DNA of 64,000 nucleotides from Crocinitomicaceae bacterium (lineage in GTDB: Bacteria; Bacteroidota; Bacteroidia; Flavobacteriales_D; Crocinitomicaceae). Under the pieces are notes generated by a model. It was not told the origin of the DNA. It did no database searches and was given only the letters and a program-made list of their open reading frames with translations. The stretch spans positions 62,001 through 126,000 of the forward strand of contig PAQM01000025.1 in NCBI GenBank assembly GCA_002709305.1, in the 5' to 3' direction. Below are positions 49,089 to 62,636 of the stretch, one piece after another. Position numbers and translations under genes: made by a program. Within the stretch, counting starts at the first letter, position 1; each line of letters begins with the position of its first letter.

Positions 49089-50546
49089 ATGAAAGTATTA
49101 AAAGACATATTATACAATATTAAAATTATCAGCATCCAAGGAGATGTAAAAGCACGGATTAATCAATTAACTTTTGACTCAAGAAAAGCTAACTCTAAAT
49201 CTCTTTTTTTCGCAATTCAAGGCACCAATATAGATGGTCATGATTATATACAAGATGCCTTAGATTTAGGCTGTACATCAATTGTTGTTGACAAAGAAAT
49301 CTCAATTAAAGGAATTAACTTAATTATAGTAGAAAACACAAAAATAGCACTCGCTTTAGCTGCTAATAATTTCTATGATGAGCCCTCAAAAGAATTAAAG
49401 TTAATTGGTATAACAGGAACTAATGGTAAAACAACCATTGCTACACTTCTTTTTAATCTATACAATTTAATGGGCTTTCAAACCGGTTTAATCTCAACTA
49501 TAGTAAATAAGATTGGTTTAAACGAATTACCGTCGACACACACAACTCCAGACCCCATCTCTTTAAATATACTTCTACGTAAAATGGTTGATGAAGGAGT
49601 TTCACATTGTTTTATGGAAGTAAGCTCTCACGCTATTCACCAAAATAGAATTACAGGAATTTCTTTTTCTGGAGGAGTTTTCACAAACATAACCCATGAT
49701 CACTTAGACTATCATAAAACATTTAAAGAATATATAAATGTTAAAAAATCATTTTTTGACAAATTACCCAAAACAGCATTTGCATTAACAAATATTGATG
49801 ATAAAAATGGTGAAATAATGTTGCAAAATACACAAGCAAAAAAAACAAGTTACAGTTTAAAATCTATATCAAATTACCATGCAAAAATTCTTGAGAATGA
49901 TTTTTCAGGATTACTTATGAGCATAAATAAAGAAGAAATATGGACAAAATTAATCGGTGATTTTAATGCATATAATTTACTTGCTGTATTTGGTGTTAGC
50001 CAAGAACTAGGAGAGGATGAAAGAGATGTTTTAACTACATTAAGTCGATTAGAATCTATCTCAGGAAGATTTCAATTCTTTAAATCAAAAACAGGAATTA
50101 TAAGCATAATAGATTATGCTCATACTCCAGATGCTTTACAAAATGTATTAAAAACAATTGAAAATATTCGCACTAAAAATGAGTCTGTATATACTATTAT
50201 TGGATGTGGGGGTAATAGAGACAAAAAGAAAAGACCTGAAATGGCAAAAATAGCATGCAAACTCTCAGATAAAGTAATCTTTACTTCAGACAATCCTAGG
50301 ACAGAAAACCCTGAAGAAATAATAGAAGATATGATGATTGGTGTTGATGCTGTTCATTTTAAAAAAACACTAAAGATATTAGACAGGACTGAAGCAATAA
50401 AAATAGCTGTCTCTATGGCTAAAAAAAATGATATCATATTAATTGCTGGCAAAGGACATGAAAACTATCAAGAAATCAAAGGAGTTAAGCACCCTTTTGA
50501 TGATATGAAAAAAATACTTGAAACACTTAACAAATTTAATAAATAG
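49089..50546 (+). CDS. murE: UDP-MurNAc-tripeptide synthetase MurE
   Basis: 485 residues. ATP-binding GTNGKTT with Lys114, catalytic HTTPDP, and DNPRTENP (Asp401-Arg404), the signature that selects meso-diaminopimelate over lysine. It adds the third residue of the stem peptide in the cytoplasm. The mDAP motif fits a Gram-negative wall. Neighbour spacing is two bases on either side. Confidence 0.96.
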
Positions 50547-50548
50547 TC

Positions 50549-51796
50549 ATGCTTTCATACTTATTCAATTATTTAGAAACATACAATTTTCCAGGAGCTG
50601 GATTATTTAATTATATCTCATTTAGAGCTGGAATGGCATTAATATTATCATTGATAATATCAATAGCATTTGGTAAACGTCTGATTAAATATCTTCAAAA
50701 ACAGCAAATTGGTGAGTCCATACGTGATTTAGGTCTAGAAGGTCAATTGTCAAAAAAAGGCACTCCTACAATGGGAGGATTAATTATTCTAGGGGCCATT
50801 CTAATCCCAACAGTATTAGTAGCAAAATTAGACAACATCTATATAATAACAATGTTAATCTCTACAATATGGTTAGGTTCCATTGGCTTTATTGATGACT
50901 ACATTAAAGTTTTTAAAAAAAACAAGGCTGGCTTAGCTGGTAAATTTAAAGTTTTCGGTCAAATTGGTGTAGGCATAATTGTTGGGTCAATGCTATACTT
51001 CAGTGATAATGTTAGTGTTCATAAAAAAGTTCCCATAGACTATGAATTAAGCTCTGAAGAGAAATTAGTAACAGAAGAACACACAACTCTTCCAAAAGAA
51101 GAAAATTCAAAATGGATTAAAACTGATGATATGACAACAACTATTCCATTTTTAAAAGGAAATGAATTCAACTACAATTGGTTAATTGGAGATTCAAATA
51201 AAAAATGGGGCTGGTTAATCTTTATACCAATAGTAATATTTATAGTTGTATTCATTTCAAATGGAGCAAATCTCACTGATGGTCTAGATGGACTTGCTAC
51301 TGGTAGCGCAGCAATTATTGGTATCGCATTAGCAGTATTAGCCTACGTAAGTTCTAATATAAAGTTTGCAGATTATCTTAATGTAATGTATATACCACTA
51401 GCAGAAGAACTTGTAGTTTTTATTTCTGCATTTGTTGGAGCATGCATAGGTTTCTTATGGTATAACTCATTTCCAGCCCAGGTATTTATGGGAGATACTG
51501 GCAGCTTAGCTTTAGGAGGAATTATTGCTGTATTTGCAATATCAATTAGAAAAGAACTATTAATCCCGATACTCTGTGGGGTATTCATTATTGAAAACAT
51601 ATCTGTAATTCTACAAGTTTTTTGGTTCAAAATCACAAAAAGAAAAACCGGAACTGGAAGTCGAATTTTCCTTATGGCACCTATTCATCATCACTATCAA
51701 AAAAAAGGAATTCATGAGGCAAAAATTGTCGCACGATTTTGGATTATAGCGATTCTACTTGCTGTAATAACTATAGTAACACTTAAAGTTAGATAA
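50549..51796 (+). CDS. mraY: Phospho-MurNAc-pentapeptide transferase MraY
   Basis: 415 residues, versus about 360 in E. coli. The catalytic motifs are [12 protein letters not shown] near 113, [12 protein letters not shown] near 246, [12 protein letters not shown] near 312 and HHHYQKKG near 373. An insertion at ~160-225, with acidic/Lys-rich residues between transmembrane segments, is typical for Bacteroidota. It makes lipid I in the inner membrane. Confidence 0.96.
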
Positions 51797-51798
51797 AA

Positions 51799-53148
51799 TT
51801 GATAGGAACAAATAAAAATATCTCAATATTAGGTGCTAAGGAAAGTGGTATTGGTACAGCAATACTTGCTAAAAAAGAAAATTGGACTGTCTTTGTTTCA
51901 GACTTGGGAAAAATTAAAACAAAATTCAAAAACACCCTAAAAAAAATAAACGTTGAATGGGAAGAAGGTCAACATAATATAGAACGAATTTTAAAATCTG
52001 ATATTATAGTTAAGTCGCCTGGCATACCAGACAATTCAAAAACCATCATTCAAATAAAAGCAGCAAAGATTAAAATAATATCAGAGATTGAATTTGCTGG
52101 CTACTATAACAATGCCAAAACAATTTGTATAACAGGGAGCAATGGCAAAACAACAACAGCAATGCTTATATACCATATACTAAAAAAAGCCAATATGAAC
52201 GTTGGTTTAGCTGGAAATATCGGTAAAAGTTTTGCAAAACAAGTAGCAGAAGAGAATTTCGATTGGTATGTCCTTGAGTTAAGTAGCTTCCAATTAGATT
52301 ATATGACCAAATTCAAAGCAGATATAGCTATAATAATGAATATTACACCTGACCATCTAGATAGATACGAATATAATATGCAAAATTATATAGATTCTAA
52401 ATTTCGCATTATTCAAAATCAAACTAAAGATGATTGGTTAATATTCAATTATGATGATCCTATAATTGAAAAAGAAATAGGACAGAGAAAAATCAAATCG
52501 AAAGTTGCACCATTCTCTCTTAGAAAAAAAATTAAAGTAGGAGGGTATCTAAATAATAAAGAAAAACAAATAATAATAAATATAAACGAAAACTTAAATA
52601 TGTCAATTCACAATTTAGCACTAAAAGGAAGGCACAATGCCCAAAATTCATTAGCATCAGGAATAGCTTCTAGAATTTTAGAAATCAGAAAAAGCACTGT
52701 AAGGGAAAGCTTAGGTGATTTTGTAAATGTAGAACATAGATTAGAATTTGTAGCCAAAGTTCATGGCATTGAATTTATCAATGATTCAAAAGCAACAAAT
52801 ATTAATTCAACATGGTTTGCGCTAGAAAGCATGGAGAATAAAACTGTTTGGATCGTTGGTGGTGTAGATAAAGGAAATGACTACGAAGAACTAACAAAAT
52901 TAGTAGAAGATAAAGTCAAGACAATAATTTGTTTAGGGAAAGAAAATAAAAAAATAATGGACGCATTTCAGGATAAAACTGAAAAAATGATTCAAACTAC
53001 ATCAATGATAGAAGCGGTAGCATATGGATATAGATTTGCAAAAAAAGGTGAAACTGTTTTATTATCTCCAGCTTGTGCTAGTTTTGATTTGTTCGAAAAC
53101 TATGAAGAGAGAGGAAATGAATTTAAAAAAGCTGTTAGATCTCTTTAA
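51799..53148 (+). CDS. murD: UDP-MurNAc-L-alanine--D-glutamate ligase MurD
   Basis: 449 residues from a TTG start two bases after mraY. ATP site GSNGKTT with Lys117, VLELSSFQLDY, NITPDHLDRY, HNAQNSLAS and EFINDSKATNINSTWFAL. It adds D-glutamate to UDP-MurNAc-Ala. The order in the cluster (after MraY) is normal. Confidence 0.96.
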   Translation: MIGTNKNISILGAKESGIGTAILAKKENWTVFVSDLGKIKTKFKNTLKKINVEWEEGQHNIERILKSDIIVKSPGIPDNSKTIIQIKAAKIKIISEIEFAGYYNNAKTICITGSNGKTTTAMLIYHILKKANMNVGLAGNIGKSFAKQVAEENFDWYVLELSSFQLDYMTKFKADIAIIMNITPDHLDRYEYNMQNYIDSKFRIIQNQTKDDWLIFNYDDPIIEKEIGQRKIKSKVAPFSLRKKIKVGGYLNNKEKQIIININENLNMSIHNLALKGRHNAQNSLASGIASRILEIRKSTVRESLGDFVNVEHRLEFVAKVHGIEFINDSKATNINSTWFALESMENKTVWIVGGVDKGNDYEELTKLVEDKVKTIICLGKENKKIMDAFQDKTEKMIQTTSMIEAVAYGYRFAKKGETVLLSPACASFDLFENYEERGNEFKKAVRSL

Positions 53149-53182: not shown

Positions 53183-54337
53183 ATGCAAAATATTTTAACA
53201 TATTTACATGGAGATCGAGTTATTTGGATAATAACTCTTCTTATGTTAGCATTTTCTCTCATTAGCGTTTATAGCTTTGTCCCCATATTGATAAAAATAG
53301 AAGGTGGTACTGCTTCTAAGTATTTGTTTAAACATCTAATTTACGTTGGAATGAGTCTCGGTGCCATGTATTGGGTGCATAAAAAAAATGTAAAATATAT
53401 TTCGCAACTTTCTAAGTTTTTGTTTTATCTATCTGTAGCGTTACTAATATTCACATTTTTCTTTGGAGCTAAAATAAATAATGCTGGAAGATGGGTGCGT
53501 ATTCCATTCGTTGGTCTTACTTTTCAATCTTCAGATTTTGCAAGGCTAGCTCTTATTATTTATTTATCAAGGTTATTAGTGAAAAAAAAAGACTTATTAA
53601 ACAAGTGGAAAGAGGGTATTCTACCAATTGTTCTACCAATAATTATAATTTGTGGATTAATTGTCAAGGATAACTTCTCAACTGCTGCAATTCTTTTCTT
53701 TATAAGCTTAATTCTTCTCTTTTTAGGTCGTATACCATGGAAGAAATGGATAACCATCATTGGGGGTGGAATAAGCTTACTATTTTTTATTATATTAATA
53801 CATAAAACTCTACCTAATTTAAACCTTCTCCCCCGCTATGAAACTTGGGAGAATCGATTCATAAATCACATTAATGATGATAATAACGTAATCGCAAATG
53901 CTCAATCTTTAAATGCACAATTAGCAATCTATTCAGGTTCATTAATTGGCAAGGGTGTTGGTGATGGAGAATTAAAAGAATATTTACCTGAAGCATATGC
54001 TGATTTCTATTACGCTTCTTTTGTAGAAGAATTTGGTCTTATATCGGCTATAATATTAATAATGCTATACCTTATTTTACTATACCGTATAATGCGTATT
54101 GGATTGAAATCAAATGACCTATTCGACACATACTTATGTATTGGAATTGGCATACTAATATTAAGTCAATGTTCAGTAAATATGCTTGTTTGCACAGGCA
54201 TATTTCCAGTTACAGGTCAAAACATGCCTTTGCTAGCAATGGGCGGTTCTGCTTTAATGATTACATGTATTAGTTTAGGAATTGTTCAAAGTATTGCAAA
54301 TAAACAAGATGAAAAAACAGGCACGATTAGTAAATAA
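53183..54337 (+). CDS. ftsW: Lipid II glycosyltransferase/division protein FtsW
   Basis: 384 residues with about ten transmembrane segments. Motifs of the SEDS family: NNAGRWVRIPFVGLTFQSSDFARLA near 90, IGKGVGDGELKEYLPEAYADFYYASFVEEFG region near 255-285 (in parts), and TGIFPVTGQNMPLLAMGGS near 335. The place between murD and murG makes it FtsW and not RodA. It polymerises septal peptidoglycan with FtsI. Confidence 0.93.
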   Translation: MQNILTYLHGDRVIWIITLLMLAFSLISVYSFVPILIKIEGGTASKYLFKHLIYVGMSLGAMYWVHKKNVKYISQLSKFLFYLSVALLIFTFFFGAKINNAGRWVRIPFVGLTFQSSDFARLALIIYLSRLLVKKKDLLNKWKEGILPIVLPIIIICGLIVKDNFSTAAILFFISLILLFLGRIPWKKWITIIGGGISLLFFIILIHKTLPNLNLLPRYETWENRFINHINDDNNVIANAQSLNAQLAIYSGSLIGKGVGDGELKEYLPEAYADFYYASFVEEFGLISAIILIMLYLILLYRIMRIGLKSNDLFDTYLCIGIGILILSQCSVNMLVCTGIFPVTGQNMPLLAMGGSALMITCISLGIVQSIANKQDEKTGTISK

Positions 54338-54368: not shown

Positions 54369-55466
54369 ATGAAAATAGAACGCGCTATAATAACAGGAGG
54401 AGGTAGTGGTGGTCATGTTTTTCCAGCTATTGCTATTGCTGATGAAATAAAAAAAAGAAATAACAATGTGAAGATTTTATTTATTGGTGCTGAAGGTAAA
54501 CTAGAGATGGAAAAGGTGCCGGCAGCAGGTTATAATATAGAGGGTCTAAAAATCATTGGATTCAAAAGGAAAATTTCTTTTTCTCATATCTTATTACCAT
54601 TCAAAATTTTTCAAAGCTTAATCAAAGCAAGAAAAATCATAAAAAAATTCAAGCCTCAAATTGTTATCGGTGTTGGTGGTTATGCTAGTGGCCCAACAAT
54701 TTTGGCTGCAACAATATCAAAAATACCATCTATAATACAAGAACAAAATTCTTTTCCGGGAAAAACAAATAAAATACTTTCAAAAAAAACAAATAAAATT
54801 TGTGTTGCTTATGAAGGCCTTGAAAGTTTTTTTCCAAAACAAAAAATTATCATCACAGGTAATCCAACAAGAAAAAATATGGTTGACATAATAGGGAAAA
54901 AAACTGATGGATATAAATTTTATGACTTTGACTCGACAAAAAAAACAATTCTAATTATTGGAGGTAGTTTAGGTGCAAAAACATTAAATGAAAGTGTTAT
55001 AAATAAGTTAGAAGAACTAAAAGATTCAGGAGTTCAAGTGTTATGGCAATGTGGGAAGTTATACTATAAAGAACTAAATAAAAAATTAAAAATAGAGACA
55101 TTAAAGAACATTAAAATGGTTCAATTTATAAATCGAATGGATCTTGCCTATTCTATTGCAGATGTTGTTATTTCAAGAGCAGGAGCTATAGCTGTATCCG
55201 AATTATGCCTTGTAAAAAAAGCAACTATCTTGGTTCCCTCTCCAAATGTATCAGAAGACCATCAAACAAAAAATGCAATGGCATTAGTGAAAAATAAAGC
55301 TGCAATTTTAATTAAAGACACTATTGCAAGAAAAATATTGATTAATAGAGCTTTAGAACTTTTAGATAATAAGAAAGAATCGGAGGAACTTCAAAATAAC
55401 ATTAGCAAAATGGGTAGGCCAAACGCTACATCAGACATTGTAGATATAATAGAAAGAGAAATTTAA
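54369..55466 (+). CDS. murG: UDP-GlcNAc:lipid I N-acetylglucosaminyltransferase MurG
   Basis: 365 residues. Glycine-rich GGGSGGHVFPAIAIA at 9-23, VIGVGGYASGP near 100, and RAGAIAVSELCLVKKATILVP near 272 (donor site). It makes lipid II at the inner face of the membrane. murC starts one base after its stop. Confidence 0.96.
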   Translation: MKIERAIITGGGSGGHVFPAIAIADEIKKRNNNVKILFIGAEGKLEMEKVPAAGYNIEGLKIIGFKRKISFSHILLPFKIFQSLIKARKIIKKFKPQIVIGVGGYASGPTILAATISKIPSIIQEQNSFPGKTNKILSKKTNKICVAYEGLESFFPKQKIIITGNPTRKNMVDIIGKKTDGYKFYDFDSTKKTILIIGGSLGAKTLNESVINKLEELKDSGVQVLWQCGKLYYKELNKKLKIETLKNIKMVQFINRMDLAYSIADVVISRAGAIAVSELCLVKKATILVPSPNVSEDHQTKNAMALVKNKAAILIKDTIARKILINRALELLDNKKESEELQNNISKMGRPNATSDIVDIIEREI

Positions 55467-55467
55467 A

Positions 55468-56845
55468 TTGAATACATCTAGAACAAATATTAATCAATTT
55501 GACCGTGCTTATCTAATAGGCATTGGTGGTATTGGAATGTCAGCAATAGCAAGATATTTCAAATCAATTAACTGGGTTGTAGGAGGGTATGATAAAACAC
55601 CTACTCTACTCACGAAGGAATTAGAAAAAGAAGGGATAAAAATTCATTATAATGATTTAAAAAACGCTATTCCTAAAGACTTCCAAGATATAAAAAAAAA
55701 CTCTTGTTATTTATACCCCTGCTATCCCATCATCTTTGGGAGAGTTAATATACATTAAAAATAATGGTTTTGTATTATTTAAAAGAGCAGTAGTATTAGG
55801 TATGATAACAAAAAAAAGTAAGTCATTATGTATTGCAGGGACTCATGGAAAGACAACAATAGCAACAATGGTAACACATGTGTTAAATCAATCACAATAT
55901 AAATGCACAGCATTTTTGGGAGGGATAAGCTCAAATATAGACTCTAATTTTATTACTAATAAAGATTCTAAATATACTGTAGTAGAGGCTGATGAATTTG
56001 ACAGGTCTTTTTTACATCTTAGACCCTTTGCTTCCATAATTAGTTCAATTGATCCCGACCATCTAGACATCTACAAAACTATTAATTGTATTAAAAAAGA
56101 ATTTCAGAACTATGCTAATTTGATTCATGAAAATGGTTTTATGATAAAGCATAAAGATCTTAAGATAGATCATCCCAATACCATTAGCTACGGATTGAAT
56201 TTTGGAGCAGATTACTTTGGAGAGAACATTAGATTTGAAAACAATACATTTGTTTTTGATGTAAAAACACCTTCTAGCTTTTGGAAAAATGTAATATTAG
56301 GTGTGCCTGGAATCCACAATGCTGAAAATGCAATAGCATGTATAGCATTATGTTCACAGTTAGGTCTAAAAGAAAATGAAATTAGAAAACCTTTAGCTAG
56401 CTTTAAAGGTGTAAAACGTCGATTTGAATATCATATCAAAAGTAAAAAATTAATTTACATCGATGATTACGCACACCATCCTACAGAAATAAATGCTCTA
56501 ATATCTTCTATAAAGTTACTTTATCCAACAAAAAAAATAACAGCTATTTTCCAACCTCATCTTTTCTCTAGGACAAAAGATTTTATGACTGATTTTGCTG
56601 AAGAGCTTAGTAATGTAGATGAATTAATCTTATTACCCATATATCCTGCAAGAGAAAAACCAATAAAAGGTATTACAAGTAAAAAGCTACTAGATAAAAT
56701 CACTCTTAACAAGAAAAAAATACTCTCCCCAAAAGAAACCTTAGAATACATCTGTAAAAATAACTTAGAAGTTCTTTTAACAATTGGAGCGGGAGATATT
56801 AATAAAATGGTAACTCCAATAAAAAAGAAACTAATAAATAGATGA
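55468..56845 (+). CDS. murC: UDP-MurNAc--L-alanine ligase MurC, split by a single-base frameshift
   Basis: Two ORFs together make one MurC. The first (55468-55758, TTG start) has the Rossmann start YLIGIGGIGMSAIARYF. It goes out of frame at a run of nine A (55692-55700). Reading in the next frame from base 55700 gives TLVIYTPAIPSSLGELIY, the expected continuation, and then the second ORF with GTHGKTT, VVEADEFDRSF, HNAENAIACIAL, DDYAHHPTEINALI and a normal C-terminus. With one A removed the protein has about 458 residues, full length. It ligates L-alanine to UDP-MurNAc. It overlaps ftsQ (ATGA). The break could be an assembly error, a real mutation or a slippage site. Confidence 0.9.
55692..55700 (+). 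other. Nine-A run at the murC frameshift
   Basis: Reading with nine A gives a premature stop about 20 codons on; eight A restores the full MurC frame. In-frame runs of nine A also occur in rsmH and topB in this window, where the frame is intact. Confidence 0.9.
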
Positions 56846-57648
56846 AAAATTGGATTAAAATAACTCTTTACATCATTTTTATAATTATAATTATCAGCCT
56901 TGGTATTAACATAAAATTATACCTAGACAATAAACTATTACTAAAACCTAAAATTATAATCAAAAATGATGGTATTAATCCTTTTATATCTAAAAAAGAA
57001 CTTCTTGAAACTCTAGAAATGAATAATTTTATTTTCAAAGACCAGAAAATAAAAGAGCTAGACATTGAATCGATAGAAAAATTTATTGGTTCAATATCAC
57101 AAGTTAAGTCTGTAAATGTCTTCCAAGAAATCAATGGTCAATGGGAAATTAACATCCAACTTAGAAAACCTATCGCTCGTATTTTAAATAAATCTGGAGA
57201 AACATACTATTTAGATGCTGAGGGTAATACGATGCACACTACGAGAACACATACAGCTAGAGTACTTGTTTTTAATGGAGAAATAAGAGATAAAGCAGAT
57301 AATTTTTCAGTTAATCAGATTATCAACAATGATTCCTTAATAAATATCCTAAAGCTAGATGATATATACCGCATTTCGAACTATGTTTGTGAAGATACAT
57401 TATTCCAATCAATGATGAGTCAAGTATATGTGGATAAAAATGGTGATTTTATAATAACACCAATGATTGGTGATCAAAAAATTATTTTTGGAACAGCTAA
57501 TTCAGACCAAGAGGTTGAATCTAAATTTGACAAACTAAAAACGTTTTATACTGAAGCTATGAAACACGAAGGTTGGAGGAAGTACAAAGAAATAAACCTT
57601 AAATATGAAGATCAAATTGTTTGCAAAAAGAAAGAGTTAATAAAATGA
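56842..57648 (+). CDS. ftsQ: Cell division protein FtsQ
   Basis: 268 residues. One transmembrane segment at ~6-26 (ITLYIIFIIIIISLGINI), then a POTRA-like region (~40-115: FISKKELLETLEMNNFIF, FIGSISQVKSVNVFQEINGQW) and a beta domain (ILNKSGETYYLDAEGNTM). Position before ftsA supports FtsQ. Overlaps ftsA by ATGA and murC by ATGA. Confidence 0.88.
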   Translation: MKNWIKITLYIIFIIIIISLGINIKLYLDNKLLLKPKIIIKNDGINPFISKKELLETLEMNNFIFKDQKIKELDIESIEKFIGSISQVKSVNVFQEINGQWEINIQLRKPIARILNKSGETYYLDAEGNTMHTTRTHTARVLVFNGEIRDKADNFSVNQIINNDSLINILKLDDIYRISNYVCEDTLFQSMMSQVYVDKNGDFIITPMIGDQKIIFGTANSDQEVESKFDKLKTFYTEAMKHEGWRKYKEINLKYEDQIVCKKKELIK

Positions 57649-58919
57649 GTAAAGTAATTGTAGGATTAGATATTGGTACAACAAAAATTGCATGTTTTGT
57701 AGGACAAATTAATGAACATGATAAAATCGAAATTTTATCGATGGGTAAAACCGATTCTCTTGGAGTATCTCGTGGAGTAGTTTCAAATATTGAAAAAACA
57801 ATTAATTCCATTCGTAGTGCAGTTGAAGAAGCCGAAGAGAGAATTGATGGTGAATTAAAAATTAAAACAGTTAATGTAGGTATAGCAGGTCAACATATCA
57901 AAAGCATTCAACATAGAGGAATCCTTACAAGAACAAATATCGAAGATGAAATATCACAACTTGACATTGATCATTTAGTTGATGATATGTATAAGATGGC
58001 GATGCCTCCTGGTGAAAAAATCATCACTGTTCTGCCTCAAGAATACATAATTGACAATGAACAAGGAATTAAAGATCCGATAGGAATGTCTGGGGTTAGA
58101 TTAGAAGCTAATTTCCATATAATTACAGGAAATATTGGAGCAACAATGAACATTAATAAATGTGTAGAACGCGCTGGTTATAAAGTGAACAATATTATTT
58201 TAGAACCAATTGCTTCTGCCGACTCTGTTCTTACAGAAGAAGAAAAAGAAGCAGGTGTTGTACTTGTTGATATTGGTGGTGGCACAACTGATGTAGCTAT
58301 TTTTCAAGAAGGCATTATCCGTCATACAGCTGTAATTCCGTATGGAGGAAATGTTATTACTGAAGATATCAAACAAGGTTGTTCAATAATGAAACGCAAA
58401 GCCGAAATGGTGAAACAACAATTTGGTTCTGCTGTAGCAAGCGAAAGCCAAGAGAATGTTGTTGTATCTATACCTGGATTAAAGGGAAGAGCACCAAGAG
58501 AAATTACACTTAGAAATCTTTCAAGCATTATACAAGCAAGGATGGAAGAGATTATTGATTTAGTAAATTTTGAAATTAAAAATTCTGGATTCGAAAAAAA
58601 ACTAATCGGTGGTATTGTTGTAACAGGAGGAGGTTCTCAACTAAAACACATAACACAGTTGTTTGAATATGTAACAGGTATGGACACAAGAGTAGGATAT
58701 CCAACAGAACATTTATCAAATAGTAATAACGAATTGATTAAAAGTCCAATGTATGCAACTGGAATTGGACTTGTACTTAAAGGCATTGAAGAACTTAAAA
58801 AATCTGACACAAGGCCCGCTGAAAATGGTGCAGTTAAAACACATTCTAAAAAAGCAAGAGGTTCTTTCTTCGATTCAATTCTTAAGATAGGTCAAGATTT
58901 TTTTACTGAGAAAGATTAA
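57645..58919 (+). CDS. ftsA: Cell division actin-like protein FtsA
   Basis: 424 residues from ATG 57645, which overlaps the ftsQ stop (ATGA); the in-frame start at 57621 would add eight residues ahead of the conserved VIVGLDIGTTKIA. The actin-fold ATP motifs are DIGTTK near 8 and VLVDIGGGTTDVAIF near 205. The C-terminus ends in a possible amphipathic helix (SFFDSILKIGQDFF) for membrane binding. It anchors FtsZ to the membrane. Confidence 0.95.
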   Translation: MSKVIVGLDIGTTKIACFVGQINEHDKIEILSMGKTDSLGVSRGVVSNIEKTINSIRSAVEEAEERIDGELKIKTVNVGIAGQHIKSIQHRGILTRTNIEDEISQLDIDHLVDDMYKMAMPPGEKIITVLPQEYIIDNEQGIKDPIGMSGVRLEANFHIITGNIGATMNINKCVERAGYKVNNIILEPIASADSVLTEEEKEAGVVLVDIGGGTTDVAIFQEGIIRHTAVIPYGGNVITEDIKQGCSIMKRKAEMVKQQFGSAVASESQENVVVSIPGLKGRAPREITLRNLSSIIQARMEEIIDLVNFEIKNSGFEKKLIGGIVVTGGGSQLKHITQLFEYVTGMDTRVGYPTEHLSNSNNELIKSPMYATGIGLVLKGIEELKKSDTRPAENGAVKTHSKKARGSFFDSILKIGQDFFTEKD

Positions 58920-58952: not shown

Positions 58953-60482
58953 ATGGATTTTGATATACCAAAAGAAACATCTTCAATCATCAAAGTTATT
59001 GGTGTAGGAGGTGGTGGAGGGAATGCCGTTAATCACATGTATAGCGAAGGCATCAAAGGAGTAGAATTTTTAGTCTGTAATACAGACTTACAAGCGCTAA
59101 AAAACTCTCCTGTTCCTCATAAGATTCAACTAGGGCCATCATTAACAGAGGGAAGAGGTGCTGGTTCATTACCCGAAATTGGTAAAAATGCTGCTATTGA
59201 AAATATAGATGAAATTAAAGAATATCTTGAAAAAGATGCTAAAATGGTTTTCGTAACAGCAGGAATGGGAGGAGGAACTGGAACCGGTGCTGCTCCTGTT
59301 ATTGCTGAAATAGCAAAAGAGCTTGGAATATTAACTGTAGGAATAGTGACTGTGCCATTTAACTTTGAGGGAAAAAGAAGACGAGAACAAGCAGAAGAGG
59401 GATTAGAAGAAATGCGTAAAAATGTTGATACATTACTCGTTATAAATAATGAACGTTTAAGAGAAATTACTGGCAACCTTCCTATAGGAAGTGCTTTCTC
59501 TCAAGCAGATAATATTTTAGCAACAGCTGCTAAAGGTATTGCTGAAGTTATTGAAAATACTGGAGCAATAAATGTGGATTTCAATGATGTAAATACTGTA
59601 ATGAAAAACAGTGGTGTTGCTATAATGGGAAGCGCTGTTGAAGAAGGTGATGACCGAGCTATAAAAGCCGTCAAAGCTGCATTAGAATCTCCATTATTAA
59701 ATGATAATGATATTAGTGGAGCAGAATATGTATTGCTAAACATTACATATGGAGATCGAGAAGTACTAATGGATGAAATTACTGAAATTACAGATTACAT
59801 TCAAGAATCCGCAGGCTCTACAGCAGATGTGATTTTTGGCCATGCTAAAGATGACTCACTTGGAGATAAAATAAGTGTTACCGTAATCGCAACAGGTTTT
59901 AAAAAGTCTCCAATAACAGGATTTGAAACAGCACCCAAAAAAGAAGTCGCCACTTTACACGACGTAGCTAAAGAAATTAAAGAACCTCTTGATTCACCTA
60001 CAGATAATACATTAACGATAATAGAAGCGACTAAAGAAGATAAATCAATAATTGATGAATCAAATGGAATAACGGAAGAAAATGAAGTAAGAAATTTAGA
60101 TTGGGATTTCTCTAATGAAGGAGAAGAGACTAACCCTGTAGAAAAAGAAGAAGAGATTATCACTCGTGTTACCTTAGAAGATGATAAGGAAGAATTGATG
60201 GATTTAGAAGGGTCTGCAAGTAAACATATAATCTCTGCAGAAGAGCAAGAAGAAAGGCGTCAAGATAGATTATCTAGAATTCAAAAATATACAGAACGGC
60301 TAAAAAATTCAGACAACATTCAAGAACTTGAAAATGAGCCTGCATATGTAAGGAGAAATATTGAATTAGATAGTTCAATGCCAAGTGAATCTGACAATAA
60401 CAGCAAATTCAGCGTGACGAAAAGTGAAGATGGAACTTCATTAAATAGTAATAATTCATTTTTACATGACAACGTTGATTAA
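58953..60482 (+). CDS. ftsZ: Cell division protein FtsZ
   Basis: 509 residues, longer than E. coli (383) because of a ~150-residue acidic linker after the GTPase (~325-495). GTP-binding tubulin signature GGGTGTGAAPVIAEIA near 105; synergy loop region NVDFNDVNTVMKNSG near 210. A short C-terminal tail NNSFLHDNVD probably binds FtsA. It forms the Z-ring. It is the last cell division gene, 34 bases after ftsA and three before the yqeY gene. Confidence 0.96.
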   Translation: MDFDIPKETSSIIKVIGVGGGGGNAVNHMYSEGIKGVEFLVCNTDLQALKNSPVPHKIQLGPSLTEGRGAGSLPEIGKNAAIENIDEIKEYLEKDAKMVFVTAGMGGGTGTGAAPVIAEIAKELGILTVGIVTVPFNFEGKRRREQAEEGLEEMRKNVDTLLVINNERLREITGNLPIGSAFSQADNILATAAKGIAEVIENTGAINVDFNDVNTVMKNSGVAIMGSAVEEGDDRAIKAVKAALESPLLNDNDISGAEYVLLNITYGDREVLMDEITEITDYIQESAGSTADVIFGHAKDDSLGDKISVTVIATGFKKSPITGFETAPKKEVATLHDVAKEIKEPLDSPTDNTLTIIEATKEDKSIIDESNGITEENEVRNLDWDFSNEGEETNPVEKEEEIITRVTLEDDKEELMDLEGSASKHIISAEEQEERRQDRLSRIQKYTERLKNSDNIQELENEPAYVRRNIELDSSMPSESDNNSKFSVTKSEDGTSLNSNNSFLHDNVD

Positions 60483-61058: not shown

Positions 61059-62636
61059 ATGAATAAACTTTCTATATTTTTCATACTAATTATAAAAATA
61101 AGTTTATCACAACCTATTATTGTCGATGGTTTTCTTACAGATTGGAATCCTAACACTACTATATTCACTGATGATCTTGGAGATTCTCCTGGTATTGACT
61201 TATTAAACTTTAGTGTGTATAATGATGAAAAAAATATTTATTTCAGACTTAAGTTAAATAATGAAATAGATCTAACTGATTCATTAGACTTACTAACATA
61301 CTCTAAGATTAGACTATTTATTGATAAAGATAATAACCCTCAAACAGGATATCCAACCAACAGTATTGGCTCAGAATATGGCATTGATTTCCAACAAAAA
61401 CATATTTGGGATGATATTGATTATCCGAATTCAATAAAAAAGTCATTCTATTGGTTAAACCTAGTTCCATTACCATCAGTCACATCCAATGAGTTTGAAA
61501 TATCTTTAGATAGGTCTACTTTCTCAGATACAATTTCCTTTTATTTTAAAGATGAAGTTAATAATGATAAAATGCCTAATAATGAGGGTTTTGTTTATAT
61601 TTTAAATAATAATACCACAAGCTCTTTACCAATAATAACATTTGACAAGTCTGATTCTCTTAAAATAAGATTAATGTCTTATAACGTCAGGGCTAATGGT
61701 ATTTTAGATCCTAGTAGAAGAGAACAAATAAAAAATATTCTTAAGAGTACTAATTCAGATGTGTTTACATTCAATGAGACAGGGAATATATCATTAGCTG
61801 AAATGGAAACTTTTTTTAATGAATTTTCATCTACAAATTGGTATATGTTCAAAACAAATAATGGTGACATAACTGTATCCAAGTATCCTTTTTCACAATC
61901 GTTTAATAATATAGATAATAAAATTGGAGGTAATTTAATTGATTTACCCGACAGTATTTATTCAACAGATTTATTGGTCTTAAACGGACATCTTGCGTGT
62001 TGTTATTCTGATATTGCAAGGCAAATAAGTGCTGATAAGTTTATAAAATTCATACTTGATTGTAAAAATGGATTAATACCACTAAACACCCCTTTTGTTT
62101 TTGCTGGAGACATGAATCTTGTTGGATATAGAGAACAATATGAAACTATATTGAATGGTACAATATCTGATACAGCATCATTTGGAATTGGAGGTTATCC
62201 TGATTGGGACAACACGCCTATTGTTGATCTAGTATGTCGATTTAATGAAGATAATCAATCATATACTTGGGATAAGTATAACCCTTCAGCTGGTGATTAT
62301 GCTCCAGGAAGATTAGACTTTATTTTTTATAGTAATAGTGTAATGTCAATTGATAAATCATTTACAATTTCAACTGAACACATGAGTGCAAATTTTTTAA
62401 GCGATAATCACTTAGACATAAATGATACTAAAGAAGCTTCAGATCACTTTCCTATTGTAGCAGATTTATCTGTACCACTAAATTCTAATTTATCAACAAA
62501 TCCATTAGCCCCTAAAACAAAAAAACTAATTAAAATTATAGATACAATGGGAAGAGAAACAAGACCAATACCAAATACTCCTCTCATATATCTATATGAA
62601 GATGGTAGTATTGAAAAAAAAATCATATTGAAATAA
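61059..62636 (+). CDS. Secreted endonuclease/exonuclease/phosphatase family protein
   Basis: 525 residues. Signal MNKLSIFFILIIKISLSQ. Residues ~20-185 form a beta domain (DGFLTDWNPNTTIFTDDLG; FIDKDNNPQTGYP) resembling CBM9-like / DOMON modules. Then the EEP domain (~205-475): MSYNVRANGI, LNGHLACCYSD, FAGDMNLVGYRE, GRLDFIFYSN, and the metal-site SDHFPIVADL. The tail (LIKIIDTMGRETRPIPNTP, ending EKKIILK) resembles the short C-terminal tail seen on many Bacteroidota exported proteins. It may cut nucleic acids or phosphodiesters outside the cell. The sdr gene starts three bases downstream. Confidence 0.82.
   Translation: MNKLSIFFILIIKISLSQPIIVDGFLTDWNPNTTIFTDDLGDSPGIDLLNFSVYNDEKNIYFRLKLNNEIDLTDSLDLLTYSKIRLFIDKDNNPQTGYPTNSIGSEYGIDFQQKHIWDDIDYPNSIKKSFYWLNLVPLPSVTSNEFEISLDRSTFSDTISFYFKDEVNNDKMPNNEGFVYILNNNTTSSLPIITFDKSDSLKIRLMSYNVRANGILDPSRREQIKNILKSTNSDVFTFNETGNISLAEMETFFNEFSSTNWYMFKTNNGDITVSKYPFSQSFNNIDNKIGGNLIDLPDSIYSTDLLVLNGHLACCYSDIARQISADKFIKFILDCKNGLIPLNTPFVFAGDMNLVGYREQYETILNGTISDTASFGIGGYPDWDNTPIVDLVCRFNEDNQSYTWDKYNPSAGDYAPGRLDFIFYSNSVMSIDKSFTISTEHMSANFLSDNHLDINDTKEASDHFPIVADLSVPLNSNLSTNPLAPKTKKLIKIIDTMGRETRPIPNTPLIYLYEDGSIEKKIILK

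Follow-up and report, generated by a model that had tools for sequence, protein, structure and literature searches.

We find that the murC gene of this Crocinitomicaceae genome, an essential cell-wall gene, is divided between two reading frames by one excess base at a run of nine A. Probably the working gene has eight A at this site, and the ninth is either an error in the consensus or a length variant that is transient or confined to a minority. The window, by which we mean the whole 64,000-nucleotide stretch of DNA that was analysed, comes from contig C25 (positions 62001-126000); the genome as a whole has 29 contigs totalling 2,315,296 bases (99.73% complete, contamination 3.95%). The genes around murC are listed in Table 1; the one that overlaps its stop is called ftsQ-like from position only, on a gene order that we presume to hold here.

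Table 1 Genes of the murC cluster in the window.
Feature	Position	Strand	Description
murE	49089..50546	+	intact; NF001126.0, 608 bits, over cut-off
mraY	50549..51796	+	intact; TIGR00445 over cut-off
murD	51799..53148	+	intact, TTG start; TIGR01087 over cut-off
ftsW-like	53183..54337	+	intact; best match TIGR02614, below its cut-off
murG	54369..55466	+	intact, stop directly before murC; TIGR01133 over cut-off
murC 5' part	55468..55758	+	TTG start, 96 aa, stop 55756-55758, out of frame after the A run
murC 3' part	55736..56845	+	first usable start TTG 55736, 369 aa; frame open from 55694
ftsQ-like	56842..57648	+	overlaps murC stop; no NCBIfam family at E 1e-30
ftsA	57621..58919	+	intact; TIGR01174 over cut-off, searched from 57645
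ftsZ	58953..60482	+	intact; TIGR00065 over cut-off

The region at 55468-56845 on the + strand is one gene in two frames with a single-base excess, collinear with the unbroken murC of relatives. Read directly, the point at which the MurC frame switches is the A9 tract at 55692-55700 (+ strand); a frame model placed the switch at 55704. The upstream frame matches only the start of MurC (positions 3-56 of TIGR01082 and 3-70 of the 95 positions of Pfam Mur_ligase), and the downstream frame, displaced by +1 relative to it, matches the remainder (TIGR01082 positions 86-446 of 449, plus the Mur_ligase_M and Mur_ligase_C domains). The two pieces score 38.4 and 300.7 bits against TIGR01082, which has a cut-off of 335.1, and no single open frame at the locus spans the full profile above this curated score; the three Mur ligase domains stand in order, directly after murG as in the nearest relative (G014). 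These frame and profile matches bear out the split at nine A that a preliminary description had proposed, and the neighbour spacing is as it claimed, with murG ending at 55466 and the next gene starting at 56842. Besides the frame switch, no further stops were found in murC. The alternative -1 frame, read at 55701, hits a stop after 15 codons, and a -1 ribosomal slip therefore cannot restore MurC. In a frame-model scan of 796 kb of the same genome, murC has the top score among the internal frame switches listed, and its switch is more than chance.

Paralogues, relatives and constraint

A search of the genome with the MurC profile returned one murC, in two pieces, and other Mur ligases. A second murC elsewhere was considered and rejected; the other MurC-like matches that were followed are an Mpl-like gene on contig C5, murD, murE and murF, and the weakest MurC-profile match in the genome (C6:351461) scores 19 bits. 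The C5 protein has 458 residues and reaches 241 bits with the MurC model and 170 bits with the Mpl model, both below cut-off. It is 72% identical to copies in G014 and in a second relative (G023), and 22-30% identical to the murC rows of relatives; in G014 a gene of this type coexists with an unbroken murC. Among the matches listed, it has a match of at least 50% identity in 56 of 60 genomes (source genome included), some of them partial, and four others (G004, G024, G041 and G047) have only weak MurC-like matches to it. By these comparisons the C5 gene is an orthologous group separate from murC, and we call it Mpl-like, a putative assignment. A second intact murC, which had been named beforehand as grounds for abandoning polymerase slippage, was thus looked for and not found in this genome, so this check leaves the slippage reading standing. 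Viral contigs were also searched for a copy of the murC site, and none was found in them.

A DNA search of 60 genomes matched 46, including the source genome, and loci were obtained for 29 of the 45 others; with two named distant relatives (46%), 31 sequences were compared at the site. In this alignment, a check already proposed in the preliminary description, murC is unbroken and without a stop in all 31 at the DNA level. The frameshift is common to none of these relatives, the nearest of which (G014) is 70% identical at the DNA level, and no second genome of the same species was found. Across the roughly 65-base stretch compared, the longest A run in any of the 31 relatives is six, and A9 occurs in none. 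The spacing across the site is 7 nt in the source genome and 6 nt (26 relatives), 9 nt (four) or 3 nt (one) elsewhere, which indicates a single-base excess in the source genome. A protein search gave the same picture more broadly; murC without stops, in open frames of at least 414 aa, was counted by hand in at least 57 of 59 other genomes, and two incomplete genomes (G032 and G048) have no murC row among the matches listed.

To set a base rate, we took 177 genomes of the order, each at least 95% complete. A MurC match above cut-off is present in 167 of them, individual rows having been inspected among the matches listed. The ten others consist of seven full-length genes without stops just below cut-off, one gene cut by a contig end (G175), one genome with no murC match (G191) and the source genome (G000), frameshifted inside a contig. 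Judged by these profile matches, murC appears intact in 174 of the 177.

Changes in the source genome at columns invariant in all other sequences number 4 of 83 in murC (30 sequences), 8 of 152 in murG (14 sequences) and 7 of 162 in the Mpl-like gene (30 sequences). The corresponding terminal branches are 0.35, 0.29 and 0.35, against 0.07-0.20 in the three nearest relatives. Faster evolution specific to murC at first seemed real; it was rejected, being common to murG and the Mpl-like gene, and since murC resembles these two in both measures we see no sign of relaxed selection on it. Neither the further lesions nor the relaxed constraint of a pseudogene was found in murC. Constraint has continued despite the frameshift, as in a gene rescued by slippage, but an error or a variant of very recent origin would look no different; ordinary constraint is therefore compatible with all three, provided that any rescue works well.

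In all three genes the terminal branches of the source genome are approximately 1.8-4.3 times longer than those of the three nearest relatives (loci L001-L030 and L079-L108), perhaps reflecting faster protein evolution in an AT-rich lineage. A decayed remnant of another gene lies at C5:36439-36674 (L046:16439-16674), next to a large helicase-like gene (named by eye); what remains there are the last ~80 residues of a protein that G014 has in full. This true relic has several stops, whereas murC is without further lesion.

Frame breaks and run lengths in the source genome

Frame breaks were counted in a sample of 796,113 bases of the source genome (loci L040-L078 and the window). The frame model, which calls a switch at least 30 nt before the stop with a score of at least 8, picks up 59 of 250 single-base breaks introduced by simulation and calls a break falsely three times in 250 intact segments; earlier versions found 39 of 150, or 105-120 of 150 with 29 of 150 intact genes falsely called. 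At threshold it makes three calls in the 796 kb, with murC scoring highest. Judged by eye, the two other calls, and a fourth just below threshold, are ordinary gene ends or overlaps.

Because the frame model finds only 59 of 250 simulated breaks, a homology comparison is the better control. Of the 624 proteins taken from G014 contig C2, 155 find a best match in the sample with 40% identity or more, and for 147 the match covers at least 80% of the protein; not all of these best matches need be orthologues, and short pieces would be missed. Two of the 155 are split, namely murC and the decayed relic on C5. Since a visible break is what drew attention to murC, an unbiased count leaves it aside, along with the relic, and gives zero frame splits among the 153 other proteins compared, a result compatible with up to ~2% of genes. 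In the reverse direction, none of 158 source-genome proteins compared with G014 was split. Neither the frame model over 796 kb nor the homology comparison thus showed an assembly broken in many places, a possibility that was considered, and murC, having been picked because it looked broken, should not be taken to indicate a high error rate.

Run lengths in coding sequence were compared with 40 synonymous shuffles of the same genes in the 796 kb sample. Runs of A were observed 328 times at length eight (284.6 expected), 96 times at nine (115.3 expected) and six times at ten or more (50.5 expected); for T, the counts are 19 at nine (32.9 expected) and two at ten or more (25.8 expected). The nearest relative avoids runs from eight on (first 400 kb of G014 contig C2; A8 25 observed, 54.5 expected). 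Deep inside open frames, defined as at least 90 nt within open frames of at least 100 aa, the sample holds 83 A/T runs of nine or more and 304 runs of eight; an intact coding A9 at 53582-53590 of the window, within the ftsW-like gene, is one example. That A9 is near expectation and A10 or longer is rare suggests that A9 is handled well and that polymerases slip little there, although the sharp drop from nine to ten could also reflect replication slippage. Slippage strong enough for a rescue of murC would come at a cost to many intact genes with A9 runs. The limit between nine and ten in coding A runs offers a testable clue to the run length that polymerases tolerate.

Origin of the ninth A

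Homopolymer runs are prone to indel error, and errors of this type break genes in assemblies. A working murC would carry A8 at the site and yield one ordinary MurC of ~458 residues, and we infer that the cells live on this form. The ninth A in the record would then be, with somewhat better than even probability, a consensus or assembly error at the homopolymer; a smaller but appreciable chance goes to a minority or transient length variant that arose by replication slippage and was retained by the assembly. Because the relatives are unbroken and nothing else in the gene has decayed, the extra A is most likely such a slip or passing variant. The locus resembles known homopolymer assembly errors: the gene is widely conserved, is unbroken apart from an indel of one base at a homopolymer, and shows no decay elsewhere. 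The case differs in that the source assembly is not visibly rich in breaks, and its cause is inferred. Given 387 runs of eight or more inside open frames, one miscalled run, picked out as odd, would be no surprise. Against this reading, the 153 other proteins compared are unsplit, 83 runs of nine or more lie well inside open frames, and the two copies of an overlap between contigs C1 and C27 agree at their long runs, though perhaps resting on the same reads. Of the three options in the preliminary description, error and population variant are accordingly favoured, and slippage is weakened, as it needs a shift of -1 or +2 and A9 is common in open genes. The case carries a caution: a single base in a homopolymer is enough for one genome record to suggest the loss of an essential gene, and comparison with relatives reveals this.

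We regard it as highly improbable that the cell has truly lost murC and either relies on the Mpl-like ligase on C5 in its place or does without MurC. The higher score of the C5 protein with the MurC model (241 bits) than with the Mpl model (170 bits) points that way, as does the order genome without any murC match (G191), though this is perhaps a gap; however, the C5 gene falls in its own orthologous group (72% identity to the G014 gene against 22-30% to murC rows), the remaining cluster is intact with murF present in the genome, and murC has no decay. A solution by translation, in which ribosomes shift by +1 or the two frames yield separate polypeptides that then assemble, has a slimmer chance still. 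The shift needed is indeed +1, and the two frames overlap by ~65 nt. Against +1 frameshifting, there is no in-frame stop at the site, unlike in the release-factor-2 shift cassette, which has one as described in a review (PMC5009743), and over 90 nt the downstream RNA is scarcely more stably folded than shuffled sequence (z -1.03); among the signals tested, neither a cassette like that of release factor 2 nor a strong downstream structure was found. As for two polypeptides, the break falls inside the first domain, and a TPA[IV] stretch that all 31 relatives conserve lies ahead of the earliest start codon in the second frame; as both pieces would lack it, a two-piece enzyme is unlikely.

Tamas in 2008 and Wernegreen in 2010 reportedly described frameshifted genes with poly(A) or poly(T) runs in Buchnera and Blochmannia whose function transcriptional slippage would preserve. 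By analogy, A9 in murC could be real and fixed, with RNA polymerase slippage giving some A8 transcripts, or A11 transcripts with one lysine more, and from these full-length MurC; we consider this possible but improbable, and not favoured. The homopolymer sits exactly at the switch, murC is otherwise undamaged and normally constrained, and the genome search found no second copy; moreover, four of 31 relatives have one extra residue in this loop, whose length is thus variable, so an A11 product could work. In the published cases presented in the same review, 12-50% of transcripts are corrected in endosymbiont genes with long poly(A) runs, cell-wall genes among them, and up to six extra nucleotides are added at bacterial runs of nine A or T (PMC5009743). 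Blochmannia vafer is described as having eight frameshifted genes that may be corrected (PMC3017870), deletions in Buchnera runs are also said to increase with run length (PMC5574713), and a paper on a flavobacterial endosymbiont genome concedes that genes of this type could remain functional (PMC3971599). With the slippage genes of Buchnera and Blochmannia, as these sources portray them, murC shares an A-rich tract, an AT-rich genome and an essential gene that is otherwise intact (PMC3017870, PMC5009743). In tssM1 of Citrobacter rodentium, an A11 tract likewise lies at a frame switch and is reported to yield transcripts of 10-15 A; there an added A restores the frame, whereas murC needs one A lost or two added (PMC4256274).

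This direction of repair, -1 (or +2), is the main difficulty. In the data set out in one study, insertions dominate E. coli and Buchnera transcripts at A/T runs, and a restored frame was detected in none of its cases (PMC5574713). In a reporter assay with E. coli polymerase, rescue by deletion reached 10% at T8, and deletion slippage was absent from the poly(A) runs examined, which may or may not include A9 (PMC6260861); the enzyme is that of E. coli, and the source organism belongs to the Bacteroidota. Within the source genome, the mild depletion of coding A9 (96 against 115.3) and the rarity of A10 or longer (6 against 50.5) suggest little slippage at A9, and A9 is found in none of the 31 relatives. 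A reverting deletion should also be frequent, on general grounds, and favoured in a free-living population, a way of life suggested by the genome size. The endosymbiont analogy drawn in the preliminary description is therefore loose: this genome has 2.3 Mb (congeners 2.1-5.1 Mb), none of 153 other proteins is split apart from murC and the one decayed remnant, A9 occurs only in the source genome among the 32 compared, coding A9 is common with A10 or longer avoided, and murC is known here from DNA alone. A literature search at the level of titles and openings turned up nothing relevant on murC with a frameshift and slippage. That a bacterium of ordinary genome size, with congeners that are not reduced, keeps its only murC working through slippage at A9, with slippage efficiency setting the amount of enzyme, seems to us a doubtful proposition, no more probable than fixed, slippage-rescued A9 itself. 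If A9 is nonetheless fixed, a rescue mechanism of reduced endosymbionts would extend to an ordinary-sized genome and an essential enzyme.

Irregularities of the assembly record

The end of contig C1 shares 7,827 bases with the start of contig C27 (L200:3447-11273 and L201:1-7827); the two copies differ by a single mismatch and by no indel, and the overlap may be an unmerged join or two variants. The two copies agree at two runs of eight and two of nine, though they may rest on the same reads. The overlap shows incomplete merging and slight variation in the record, and in this stretch the homopolymers agree; a similar overlap was sought at three other contig starts (C25, C6 and C5) and not found. 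Fifteen N, eleven of them single and one group of four, fall within ~250 bases at C5:47375-47626 (L047:7375-7626) and represent ambiguous calls or masking. Together with the unmerged overlap, they are a sign that the record has flaws, which lends the error reading some weight. Finally, stretches of ~120 bases are 88-96% identical at the DNA level across contigs C2, C5, C6, C22, C25 and C26 (for example, L040:4426-4550), and the copy in the window (62520-62636) has 68% identity and lies at the 3' end of a gene; these repeats may encode C-terminal sorting tails that gene conversion has kept similar.
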